Assembly (NCBI RefSeq): GCF_014695975.1
Contig: NZ_JACJPI010000040.1
Coordinates: 62,001-126,000, forward strand
Reading direction: 5' to 3'
Origin: Leptolyngbya sp. FACHB-321
Lineage (GTDB): Bacteria > Cyanobacteriota > Cyanobacteriia > Leptolyngbyales > Leptolyngbyaceae
DNA length: 64,000 bases
This document shows positions 41,768 through 45,084 of the stretch, piece after piece (the stretch's first letter is position 1; each line of letters opens with the position of its first letter). The notes beneath the pieces were generated by a model. The model ran no database searches and was not told the DNA's origin. It saw only the letters and a program-made list of their open reading frames with translations. The translations under genes and the position numbers were made by a program.

Positions 41768-41822
41768 TCATTCGGCATGATCCAACGTGAGAAGAAGTAA
41801 TGCCGCTCCACTCGCCTTGTGC

Positions 41823-44729
41823 TCATTCTTCACTAAAAATGTCTAGCTGCTCGATCGGTTGCTCTACTGGATAAACTTCACCATTCTTTTCGCGGGTGGA
41901 GTGATTGGTTTGATTGCCTTTGCGTAAGTCGATCGCGATTTTGCTGTGTTTCTCAATTTGCCCCATTACCTGTCGTGCCCGTTGAATAACCGATGCAGGC
42001 AAACCAGCTAACCGTCCTGCTTCAATGCCGTAAGAGCGATCGGCACCACCGGGCTGCACTTTATGCAAAAAGATAATTTGATCGGGCAATTCTTTCACGA
42101 CAACTTGATAGTTAGCAACGTTTGGCAAAATCGACGCTAGCTCGTTGAGTTCATGGTAGTGGGTCGCAAAAATTGTACGAGCGCGGATTTCAGTTGCCAG
42201 ATGTTCTGCCACTGCCCAAGCGATCGACAGACCATCAAAGGTTGCCGTACCGCGTCCAATCTCATCCAGCAAAACGAGCGATCGCGGCGTAGCATGATTC
42301 AAGATATTTGCCGTTTCATTCATTTCCACCATGAACGTGGATTGTCCCGTTGCCAGGTCATCCACTGCCCCGACACGGGTGAAAATGCGATCGCAAACGC
42401 CTAGTGTCGTTGACTGTGCCGGAACGAAACTCCCCACCTGTGCCATCAGTTGAATCAGCCCCACCTGACGGAGGTAACAGCTTTTGCCGCTGGCATTGGG
42501 TCCCGTAAGGACAATGAGATCAGGGGAGGGCTGAGGGGAAGAGTTTTGAGTTTTGAGTAGCGCTAGCTCCGAAGGAGCCACTTCGTGTACGCGCCGCGTT
42601 ACTAGAGAGTTTTGAGTTTTGAGTTTTCCTTTGACTTCTGCTTCCCCTACTTCCTCTGCCTCCCGACTCCCGACTCCCGACTCCCGACTCCCCATCGCCG
42701 TCGAATTAGGCACAAAAAAGCCAGCAGGAAGGGATTGCTCCACCACGGGATGTCGACCTTCAAGGATATGGATTTCGCGGTTCGCAAGCATCTCTGGACG
42801 ACAGTAACCCTGATATACTGCCACTTCAGCTAACCCACAGAGGACATCGATCGCTGCCACTGACCGTGCTACGGTGCGGATGAGTTCTGCCTGTTCGCCG
42901 ACTTGCGATCGTAATTCGGCAAAAATTTCGTACTCCAGATGGTTCAGGCTTTCTTGCGCCAGTTGAATGCGATTTTCTCGCTCTTTCAGATCTTGGGTGA
43001 TGTAGCGCTCTTCGTTGGTGAGGGTCTGTTTGCGGGTGTAGCCGTCGGGTATCTGCTGACCGGCTTTGGCGCGAGAAATGCTGATGTAGTAGCCAAAAGT
43101 TTTGTTGTAGCCCACTTTGAGGGTTGGAATGCCTGTGCGATCGCGCTCGACTACTTCCAGATTTCTGATCCACTCCTGATCGGCATCCACCTGCTGGCGG
43201 AGGGAATCTAACTGAGCGTTGACCCCCGGTCGAATTAAGTTGCCATCGGTGAGGTAGAGCGGTGGTGTCTCCACTAGATGAGCGTGGAGATGCTGACCCA
43301 GATGTTCTAGAACGGGGGGGACGGTCTGGAGGTCTTGCAGGTAGCGCGATCGCGTGCCTTCTACCAGTCGTCCCAGGTCGGGCAGTTTGTCGAGCGAATC
43401 TGCCAGAGCCACGAGATCGCGGGCATTTGCCGTGCCTGAGCCAGCGCGACCAGCCAGCCGTTCCATGTCATAGATTTGCTTCAGCAAGCGTTGCAGCGTT
43501 TGGCGCAAAGAGCCGTTTTCAACGAGTTCGGCGATCGTCTCTTGGCGATCGTGAATCTGTTTCAACTGGAGCAACGGTTGTAGGAGCCAGCGTCGTAGCG
43601 CTCGACTGCCCATTGCCGTTACGGTTTTGTCGAGTGCCCACAGCAGCGACCCGTGATAGGTGCCATCCCGCGCCGTTTGTGTAATTTCGAGATTGCGCCG
43701 GGTCTGGTGGTCAATCACCAAGTATTCAGTCAGCGTGTAGGTACACAACGGCTGCAAGGGAAAGGTTTTGAGGGATGAAGGATGAAGGATGAGGGATGAG
43801 GCGTTACTCTCACCTTTTGCCTTTTGCCTTTTGCCTTCATCCTTTCCTGCCCCTTTCTCTGTGCTGGTTTCGACATATTCCAACAGCCCACCTGCTGCCC
43901 GGACAGCCAGCGGCAGATGCTCGCAGCCCATGCCTTCCAGCGATCGCACGCGAAAACGTTGCAGCAAGCGATACCGTGCTTCTGATAGCACAAAGGGAGC
44001 CTGCGATCGCAGCGTGTAGCAAAACTGAGGTGGCAGGCACTCTGGTAAATGGTCTGATTTTTCGCCGGGTCGTAGCAGACTCACGAGATCGGGCGCGTTG
44101 GTGGGAAACAGCACTTCTGACGGCTGTAAGCGCAAGAGTTCCTGGGTCAACTGCTCTAGCGATTGCGCCTGCGTGGTGAGGAATTCGCCGGTAGATACAT
44201 CGGCATACGCCAGACCCCAATGATTTCCTGCAATCACCACCGCTGCTAAAAAGTTGTTGCGGCGTGCATTGAGCATCCCTTCTTCAAGAATGGTGCCAGG
44301 CGTAATGACGCGAGTGATTTCGCGCCGCACCAGTTGCCCCTGCGCGCCAGCCGCGTCTTCCATCTGGTCGCAGACGGCGATCGCAAACCCTTTCTCAACC
44401 AGCACGGCACAGTAGCGATCGAGGGCGTGATGGGGAATGCCTGCCAGAGGCACTTTGCCCACGTCCTTACCCGCATCCTTCGCCGTTAGAATTAGCTCTA
44501 GCTCACGGGCAATGGCGATCGCATCCTGGAAAAACGTCTCAAAAAAATCCCCTACCCGATACAGCAGCAGCGCATGGGGATATTGATCTTTTAGTTCCAC
44601 GTAATGACGAATCATGGGCGTGAGGGAAGCGCGATCGACCGATCGATGGTCGGCATAGCGTACTGCGTGTTTCACCAACCGTTCCGGCAACCCATTTGTA
44701 AACTCAGAGGTAGAAGCAGCATCCGTCAT
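41823..44729 (-). CDS. mutS: DNA mismatch repair protein MutS
   Basis: MutS recognises mismatches and recruits MutL. The 968-aa protein has the mismatch-recognition domain ([32 protein letters not shown] with the Phe-x-Glu intercalating motif), connector, lever and clamp domains, and the ABC-type ATPase with [13 protein letters not shown] and [22 protein letters not shown]. It is longer than typical cyanobacterial MutS because of two inserted segments: about 33 residues between [11 protein letters not shown] and [10 protein letters not shown] (43755-43860), and about 55 residues between FFVPNSTA and [15 protein letters not shown] (42530-42712). Both are encoded by heptamer repeats. The start is ATG 44729. 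Core motifs are intact, so function is likely retained. Confidence 0.97.
42541..42694. repeat. In-frame composite repeat inside mutS, ahead of the ATPase domain
   Basis: The insert is composed of GTTTTGA heptamers (two at 42543-42556, two more at 42609-42622), a small GCTCC-GAA-GGAGC hairpin at 42566-42578, and four perfect TCCCGAC heptamers at 42661-42688. All of it is read through by mutS on the minus strand. Confidence 0.9.
43772..43842. repeat. In-frame paired heptamer arrays inside mutS, core region
   Basis: A purine array of four GGATGAA/GGATGAG units (43773-43800) is followed after about 12 bases by a pyrimidine array CCTTTTG, CCTTTTG, CCTTTTG, CCTTCAT (43813-43840). The two arms are partly complementary. 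The whole stretch lies within the mutS reading frame. Confidence 0.9.
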
Positions 44730-45084
44730 GAATCAATGCTAGAGCAAGGGCTTCAACCACTTTAACGCTGATTCGCCACCGTCTTTAGAGGGAACGTAGG
44801 GTTCTACTAGCGGCGGGGATGCCTCACACCGTCTCAACTCAACTTCAAGCGTTTACGAACCTGAACGCTCCTTTTAAAGCGGTAGCAACGGAGCTATTTC
44901 TATAGTTTTTTGAATAGTTGACAGAGAGAGCGTAACGTTTCCTCAACCTGCTGCTACAGTGAATCAGCCTGCAAAACCTCAGGCAATCGCTGCATCTACA
45001 TAGAATCACTTCAAAATAGATGTGCCTAAACGGTTGGCATCTTCTATACTGCTTTCGTGTCTTAAATTCCTTAACGAGCAAACT
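44730..45084. other. 355-bp divergent spacer between mutS and the GspC/PilP-like gene
   Basis: No gene is supported. It should contain the mutS promoter (minus strand) and that of the gene at 45085. A TTCTATACTGC sequence near 45044-45054 could be a -10 element for the latter, but no matching -35 at the right distance is seen. Confidence 0.4.

Follow-up and report, generated by a model that had tools for sequence, protein, structure and literature searches.

In-frame heptamer repeats and a GTAG...CTAG module in a hypervariable, predicted disordered loop of MutS from Leptolyngbya sp. FACHB-321

The mismatch-repair gene mutS of Leptolyngbya sp. FACHB-321 carries tandem heptanucleotide repeats and a short GTAG...CTAG module, which are read in frame as a loop directly before the ATPase Walker A motif. 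The parts of this composite are dispersed in the genome, the loop is hypervariable among relatives while its frame stays open, and it is predicted to be disordered. Very probably, dispersed heptamers and the module occupy a permissive loop of MutS, where they are changed by slippage, filtered by selection and tolerated by the protein.

Results

Anatomy of the mutS gene and its inserts

The window, meaning the whole analyzed stretch of 64,000 nucleotides, contains the sole full-length match among three mutS matches found in the genome. Its product matches NF003810 (MutS) with 1021.7 bits against a cut-off of 480, covering the complete model (1-793 of 793), and the columns of the Walker A (GPNxSGKS) and DEIGRGT (Walker B) motifs are invariant in the 38 sequences aligned. 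The full-length match and the two motifs place the protein in MutS (MutS1). The FVPN motif occupies aa 672-675 and the Walker A motif starts at aa 741. The following features were delimited.

41823-44729, minus strand: mutS, ORF of 968 aa with the NF003810 match
42525-42692, minus strand: hypervariable loop, aa 680-735 (56 aa), between the FVPN and Walker A strands, delimited by length in relatives and by pLDDT
42660-42692, minus strand: GGGAGTC heptamer array (CTCCCGA on the plus strand), 4.7 perfect copies, 100%
42628-42659, minus strand: purine-rich spacer, coding strand GCAGAGGAAGTAGGGGAAGCAGAAGTCAAAGG, by eye like the mutS spacers of genomes G004 and G005
42607-42627, minus strand: ACTCAAA heptamer array (GAGTTTT on the plus strand), 3.0 perfect copies
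42557-42608, plus strand: GTAG...CTAG module, long form, 52 nt, with a 5-bp GCTCC/GGAGC hairpin, recognized by its short-form copies and its flanks
42541-42558, minus strand: ACTCAAA heptamer array on the other side of the module (GAGTTTT on the plus strand), 2.6 perfect copies
42525-42540, minus strand: pyrimidine-rich arm, coding strand TTCCCCTCAGCCCTCC, read from the sequence
43740-43871, minus strand: second variable insert, aa 287-330, with a TGAGGGA array at 43769-43801 and a CCTTTTG array at 43813-43837

In the coding direction, the loop is composed of the GGGAGTC array, the purine-rich spacer, ACTCAAA heptamers, the GTAG...CTAG module, further ACTCAAA heptamers and the pyrimidine-rich arm. 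A composite repeat of about 55 residues had been proposed here in the first-pass annotation. The GAGTTTT arrays, the GCTCC-GAA-GGAGC hairpin between them and the CTCCCGA array indeed all lie inside the mutS ORF between FVPN and Walker A, and the estimated length was near the mark. That the composite is read in frame was also borne out, and the order of purine arm, ACTCAAA heptamers, GTAG module, ACTCAAA heptamers and pyrimidine arm was found elsewhere in the genome. The second heptamer-bearing insert had been absent from that annotation; within the genus (seven genomes) its length ranges from 44 to 74 aa, with a median of 28 across 70 parsed loci.

Tandem heptanucleotide repeats of cyanobacteria are known as STRR. 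The three arrays of the mutS loop, all without mismatch, belong to this type of perfect or near-perfect tandem 7-mers. A G3 quadruplex-type motif of four tracts is contained in the GGGAGTC array, on the coding strand. The hairpin is unremarkable: folding of the 52-nt module is no stronger than that of its shuffles (z +0.29), and 101 nt of DNA around it fold ordinarily (z -0.74). An Rfam search of 41800-44800 returned one sub-threshold, implausible microRNA match.

Predicted structure and reading frame

An AlphaFold2 model of MutS, built with 40 sequences, reached a mean pLDDT of 82.3 and a pTM of 0.80. Its nearest solved structure is E. coli MutS (1w7a_B; Z 42.5, rmsd 2.4, 760 residues aligned). 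Values of pLDDT below 50 are found at residues 684-731 in the loop and 306-319 in the second insert. The blocks flanking the loop, 671-680 and 731-750, have values of 79-84, and blocks 741-750 and 781-800 merely 67-80. In the predicted structure the loop joins strands 675-679 and 738-742, immediately before Walker A. The model thus predicts a normal MutS fold bearing a disordered loop.

In each of the four mutS arrays tried, adding or removing one or two units brings a stop into frame at aa 301-762 with Walker A lost, and a change of three units keeps the frame. Judged from the sequence alone, the mutS arrays share with contingency tracts the property that unit changes would switch the reading frame. 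The suggestion of the first-pass annotation that length changes could alter mismatch repair is not supported. The loop is predicted to be disordered, and a length change by one or two heptamers would cut MutS short through a frameshift instead of adjusting its activity.

Variation of the loop among relatives

The mutS gene was searched in 77 genomes (own, genus, family and class, one genome per species). The loop was read at 89 loci, from 70 of the 77 genomes plus 19 named loci, some of which may duplicate the genomes, as L041 and G020 at zero distance. Seven genomes were unread, namely G025, G037, G050 and G068, which lack a full match, and G056, G063 and G074. Six loci without a single open frame holding all anchors were dropped. 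Short loops are present in three of them, L133 (16), L142 (20) and L155 (16), with a frameshift behind the loop in L142; the match of L028 spans query residues 1-645 only, and L151 lacks the FVPN motif. The sixth, L017 from G010, has an open linker and is broken at the Walker A start, outside the repeats.

The distance from FVPN to Walker A in the 83 kept loci is 13-20 residues in 40, 21-28 in 14 and at least 30 in 29. It is 32-86 in all seven genomes of the genus, and at least 30 in 17 of 37 in the family. Fourteen of the 83 loops hold an exact heptamer array that spans 18 bp or more, with differing units, including ACTCAAA in eight copies (G001), CTCACTC (G005), CCCCACA (G002), GGAGAGG (G004), CTCGACC (G023) and ATCCAAA (G053 and G019). 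All six other genomes of the genus possess repeat-bearing inserts at the same mutS site, in frame. One purine spacer is common to the mutS genes of G000, G004 and G005 and another to those of G002 and G006, so shared descent with turnover explains part of the within-genus pattern. The first half is more purine-rich in 26 of the 29 long loops. MutS loops of 112 aa (G059, L135) and 43 aa (G061, L127) show no heptamer signal; heptamers are therefore not the sole source of loop length.

On a 79-tip MutS tree, the label of a loop of at least 30 residues requires at least 12 changes, against a mean of 23.9 and a minimum of 18 for shuffled labels. These sequences indicate that the long loop is inherited within clades yet often gained or lost. 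Conservation of the segment across distant cyanobacteria, named in the first-pass annotation as the finding that would speak for normal MutS sequence, was not found, and the comparison indicates that the insert is not ordinary MutS sequence.

Heptamer arrays across the genome

Arrays were counted in 864 kb, made up of the window and 40 stretches of 20 kb each, in which the ORFs predicted with a simple script based on codon usage cover 80% of the bases. The sample contains 27 perfect period-7 arrays of at least 20 bp (some 2.85 copies upward); 12 of them fall in ORFs and 15 outside. Four of those in ORFs are the mutS arrays themselves, since the window was chosen for mutS. Without the window, 21 arrays were found in 800 kb, eight in ORFs and 13 outside. 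Other periods are represented in the 864 kb by three arrays (period 5), seven (period 6), one (period 8) and none (periods 9, 10, 11, 12, 13 and 15). The arrays thus exceed chance and are dispersed genome-wide as in STRR, with specificity for period 7. As 12 of the 27 sampled arrays are in ORFs, the repeats are not solely intergenic. Of the earlier idea of a captured intergenic element, the in-frame composite stands; the rest needs correction, in that the repeats also occur in ORFs and the insert is not a one-off.

All 12 arrays in ORFs are stop-free in the coding orientation. Units that are stop-free in both orientations make up 9 of 12 in ORFs versus 2 of 15 outside (Fisher p=0.002), and 7 of 8 versus 2 of 13 without the window (p=0.002); 51% of random heptamers have this property. 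The 24 matches to GGGAGTC collapse to 12 sites in 11 genes. Every site lies in an open frame (208-865 aa) that has a family match. The hosts are MutS, MenE (two sites), NurA, DUF1688, PanC-Cmk, ValS, GyrA, an OmpA/beta-helix protein, a HyuA-like protein, a UgpC-like ATPase and a CbiG_C protein, where the site lies behind the domain. GTTTTGA arrays, unlike GGGAGTC, lie outside long open frames at the majority of the sites read. Their flanks (L160-L189) are purine-richer on the left than on the right at 19 of 24 sites, with a mean difference of 0.21 and a control sd of 0.10; for these 24 sites overlaps were merged, and four of 34 matches, without loci, were left out. A reversed-pattern control for GTTTTGAGTTTTGAG was discarded, as reversal yields the identical heptamer array. 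The 800 kb hold 525 called genes with a length of 450 nt or more; ten of these have a 42-nt stretch matching at least 74% at lag 7, and none has one at lags 4, 5, 8, 10, 11 or 13.

The GTAG...CTAG module

The short form of the module, GTAGCGCTTYGCGCCGCNNYGCTAG, has 11 matches in the genome at up to three mismatches, and the control has none. GTAG, the end typical of a REP, is exact in eight of the 11 short copies and in the mutS copy. All 13 copies, including those of G000 and G006 mutS, are preceded by TTTGA (12) or TTTAA (one) at one phase, and GTTTTG follows at equal distance in nine of the 13. Joining the flanks in two examples gave an unbroken heptamer array, with a module of exactly 28 nt, that is, four heptamers.

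In their best folds, three of the 11 short copies show a stem of 6 bp and most have one of 4 bp; one of the 11 folds clearly better than shuffles (z -2.97). Folded alone, the mutS long form has stems of up to 5 bp; with its flanks included, an outer stem of 8 bp appears. The module is thus not a strong palindrome. Its classification as a REP was rejected, since copy-by-copy folding did not in general give the stems of about 6-13 bp described in the available part of PMC3733652.

Five of the 11 short copies lie inside ORFs with known domains (GH116, NB-ARC, LarC, HyuB-like and PriA). A sixth, in a 458-aa frame that no Pfam family matches, lies close to the N-end. All six share one reading direction. 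The seventh (L263) has the opposite direction, near the end of a 163-aa frame, and for the remaining four the frame is 44-101 aa long. In another species, priA of G001 holds a stretch of 53 bp related to the mutS long form (46 of 53 identical), and the priA copy of G000 is short. In the tree, G000 is paired with G002 (0.966) and G006 with G005 (0.646), both partners being without the module in mutS. Two gains would be the shortest account of the module in mutS of G000 and G006.

A gene for a REP-associated tyrosine transposase (RAYT) is present in the genome (L228:2264-2836; NF047646, 215 bits). The module pattern had no match within 1.5 kb of it, and none in the 30 loci around IS200-like genes of the genus (L290-L319). 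By eye, the RAYT gene is flanked by inverted GTAGGTTGGGTT repeats, a GTAG repeat other than the module. These observations do not support mobility of the module driven by RAYT.

Inserts in other genes

One loop of PriA (priA, L262, C83; L266-L274) carries a composite of the mutS kind. Its content is different in every one of the six genomes parsed within the genus, always in frame, with G003 unparsed. A gyrA-like loop varies in six of the seven genomes, the parsed ones. In the sample without the window, heptamer inserts were also found in LigA (L250:1-1887), SbcC (L237:16582-19953), DnaX (L243:11493-13550) and Mfd (L245:12444-16052), and similar repeat peptides occur in unrelated proteins. In MenE (o-succinylbenzoate-CoA ligase; L192, C37:27105 and 27451), heptamer-derived inserts were seen by eye at three places. 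The adjoining ORFs of hydantoinase-like HyuA and HyuB (L206, L261; C72:210716-212786) each bear composites, that of HyuA having the part order of mutS minus the GTAG module.

Replication and repair genes account for 4 of 10 heptamer-bearing genes (LigA, SbcC, DnaX and Mfd) versus 3 of 40 length-matched ones (RarA-like, PolA and UvrC; p=0.023), a comparison that is post hoc, with classes taken from Pfam names and small numbers. The repeat hosts may be enriched for such genes, which is a lead only.

Discussion

Origin of the loop

We propose that a permissive MutS loop acquires repeats from elsewhere or generates them in place, and that the arrays then lengthen and shorten by units, presumably via replication slippage. 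The GTAG module appears either to have entered an array of ACTCAAA or to move jointly with such an array. Frame-shifting or stop-bearing versions would be purged by selection and open in-frame ones would persist, so that a long disordered and tolerated loop would remain. The same process would act on loops of PriA, GyrA, LigA, SbcC, DnaX and Mfd among others. Slippage and mobility of the module are inferred, and neutrality for MutS function is assumed.

A slip by a single heptamer would cut MutS short. A mutator switch is therefore conceivable, though unsupported, in which slippage turns mutS off and on and gives rise to reversible mutator cells. A change of one or two units would end the protein ahead of Walker A or shortly after it, a change of three preserves the frame, and repeat-driven switches of mutL and mutS have been proposed in Salmonella (PMC2955026). 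However, the arrays are short (2-5 copies), their units vary by species so that no tract is conserved, and such arrays are present in many genes where switching has no obvious sense. No frameshift lies within the linker in the 83 kept loci, though keeping demanded one open frame. Natural frameshift alleles were considered as support and rejected, as the breaks in mutS of G010, G013, G048 and G015 all lie outside the linker repeats, that of G010 at the Walker A start. We regard the switch as unlikely. A broader version, in which a composite family moves in frame into loops of MutS, PriA, GyrA, LigA, SbcC, DnaX, Mfd and NurA and makes genome maintenance phase-variable through reversible frameshift switches, seems quite unlikely.

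The repeat peptide could instead serve MutS itself by tuning the ATPase, by tethering or by binding a partner. This would conform to a loop that runs directly into the Walker A strand and is kept long in all seven genomes of the genus, but its sequence and length vary even within the genus, disorder is predicted, and similar peptides recur in unrelated proteins; we give such a function little credence. That a hairpin or a G-quadruplex of the mutS mRNA regulates expression is very improbable. The coding strand does hold the four-tract G3 motif, and in Nostoc and Xanthomonas, G-rich repeats with heptamer units adopt G4 structures in vitro (PMC4692102), whereas the mRNA of the insert folds weaker than shuffles (z +1.71), the GGGAGTC array is absent from the loops of most relatives, and under-representation in ORFs is reported in the available part of PMC4692102. 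As for an artefact of assembly or annotation, repeats are readily mis-assembled and the genome is a draft of 91 contigs, but the six other genomes of the genus also carry in-frame, repeat-bearing inserts at this position, which makes an artefact scarcely credible. Tolerated, slippage-driven repeats in a permissive loop are the explanation that we favor.

Relation to known repeats

Heptamer repeats in cyanobacteria (PMC4692102) and REPs inside repair genes (PMC3733652) are already known from the available parts of these sources. The GGGNATC-type heptamers of Nostoc have 2-26 units, with four preferred, and resemble the present ones as genome-dispersed tandem heptamers that include a G-rich class (PMC4692102, as far as available). 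According to the same text they are under-represented in coding regions, whereas 12 of 27 sampled arrays are in ORFs here; the present heptamers also differ in being combined with the GTAG module and purine and pyrimidine arms. Intragenic GTAG/CGTC REPs lie inside ORFs, code for tens of residues and are frequent in DNA synthesis and repair genes (PMC3733652, in the part available). Short GTAG-ended repeats in ORFs with repair genes among the hosts are common to both, but the present module is a weak stem-loop embedded at a single phase in ACTCAAA heptamers, and no RAYT link was found for it.

Rickettsia palindromic elements are likewise tolerated short in-frame inserts in conserved proteins; in the available part of PMC3733652 they are described as palindromes with no mention of heptamer arrays, and the likeness is by description only. 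SDR5 of cyanobacteria is similar as a short module at one exact position of another repeat, which is HIP1 in that case and ACTCAAA here, again compared by description only (PMC4390886, available part). The 6-bp switch of Salmonella mutL is also a tandem repeat in a mismatch-repair gene near the ATP site. It has in-frame units and measured mutation rates, whereas the 7-bp units reported here are known from sequence alone (PMC2955026, available part).

No prior description of in-frame heptamer inserts in cyanobacterial proteins was found in a literature search that barely targeted mutS and did not target priA, which is weak evidence of absence. Within that search, the combination of parts, its in-frame spread, and MutS and PriA loops with species-specific repeats are apparently new.

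Descriptions of cyanobacterial short repeats usually place them mostly between genes. In the present genome they pass in frame through housekeeping proteins, and one loop is occupied by different repeats in different species. This offers a natural experiment on the amount of disordered insert that an essential machine can bear and on how dispersed repeats survive within genes. A possible tie to replication and repair genes becomes testable. If any of the tracts slips measurably, it would be a frameshift hotspot in the very gene that guards against slippage.
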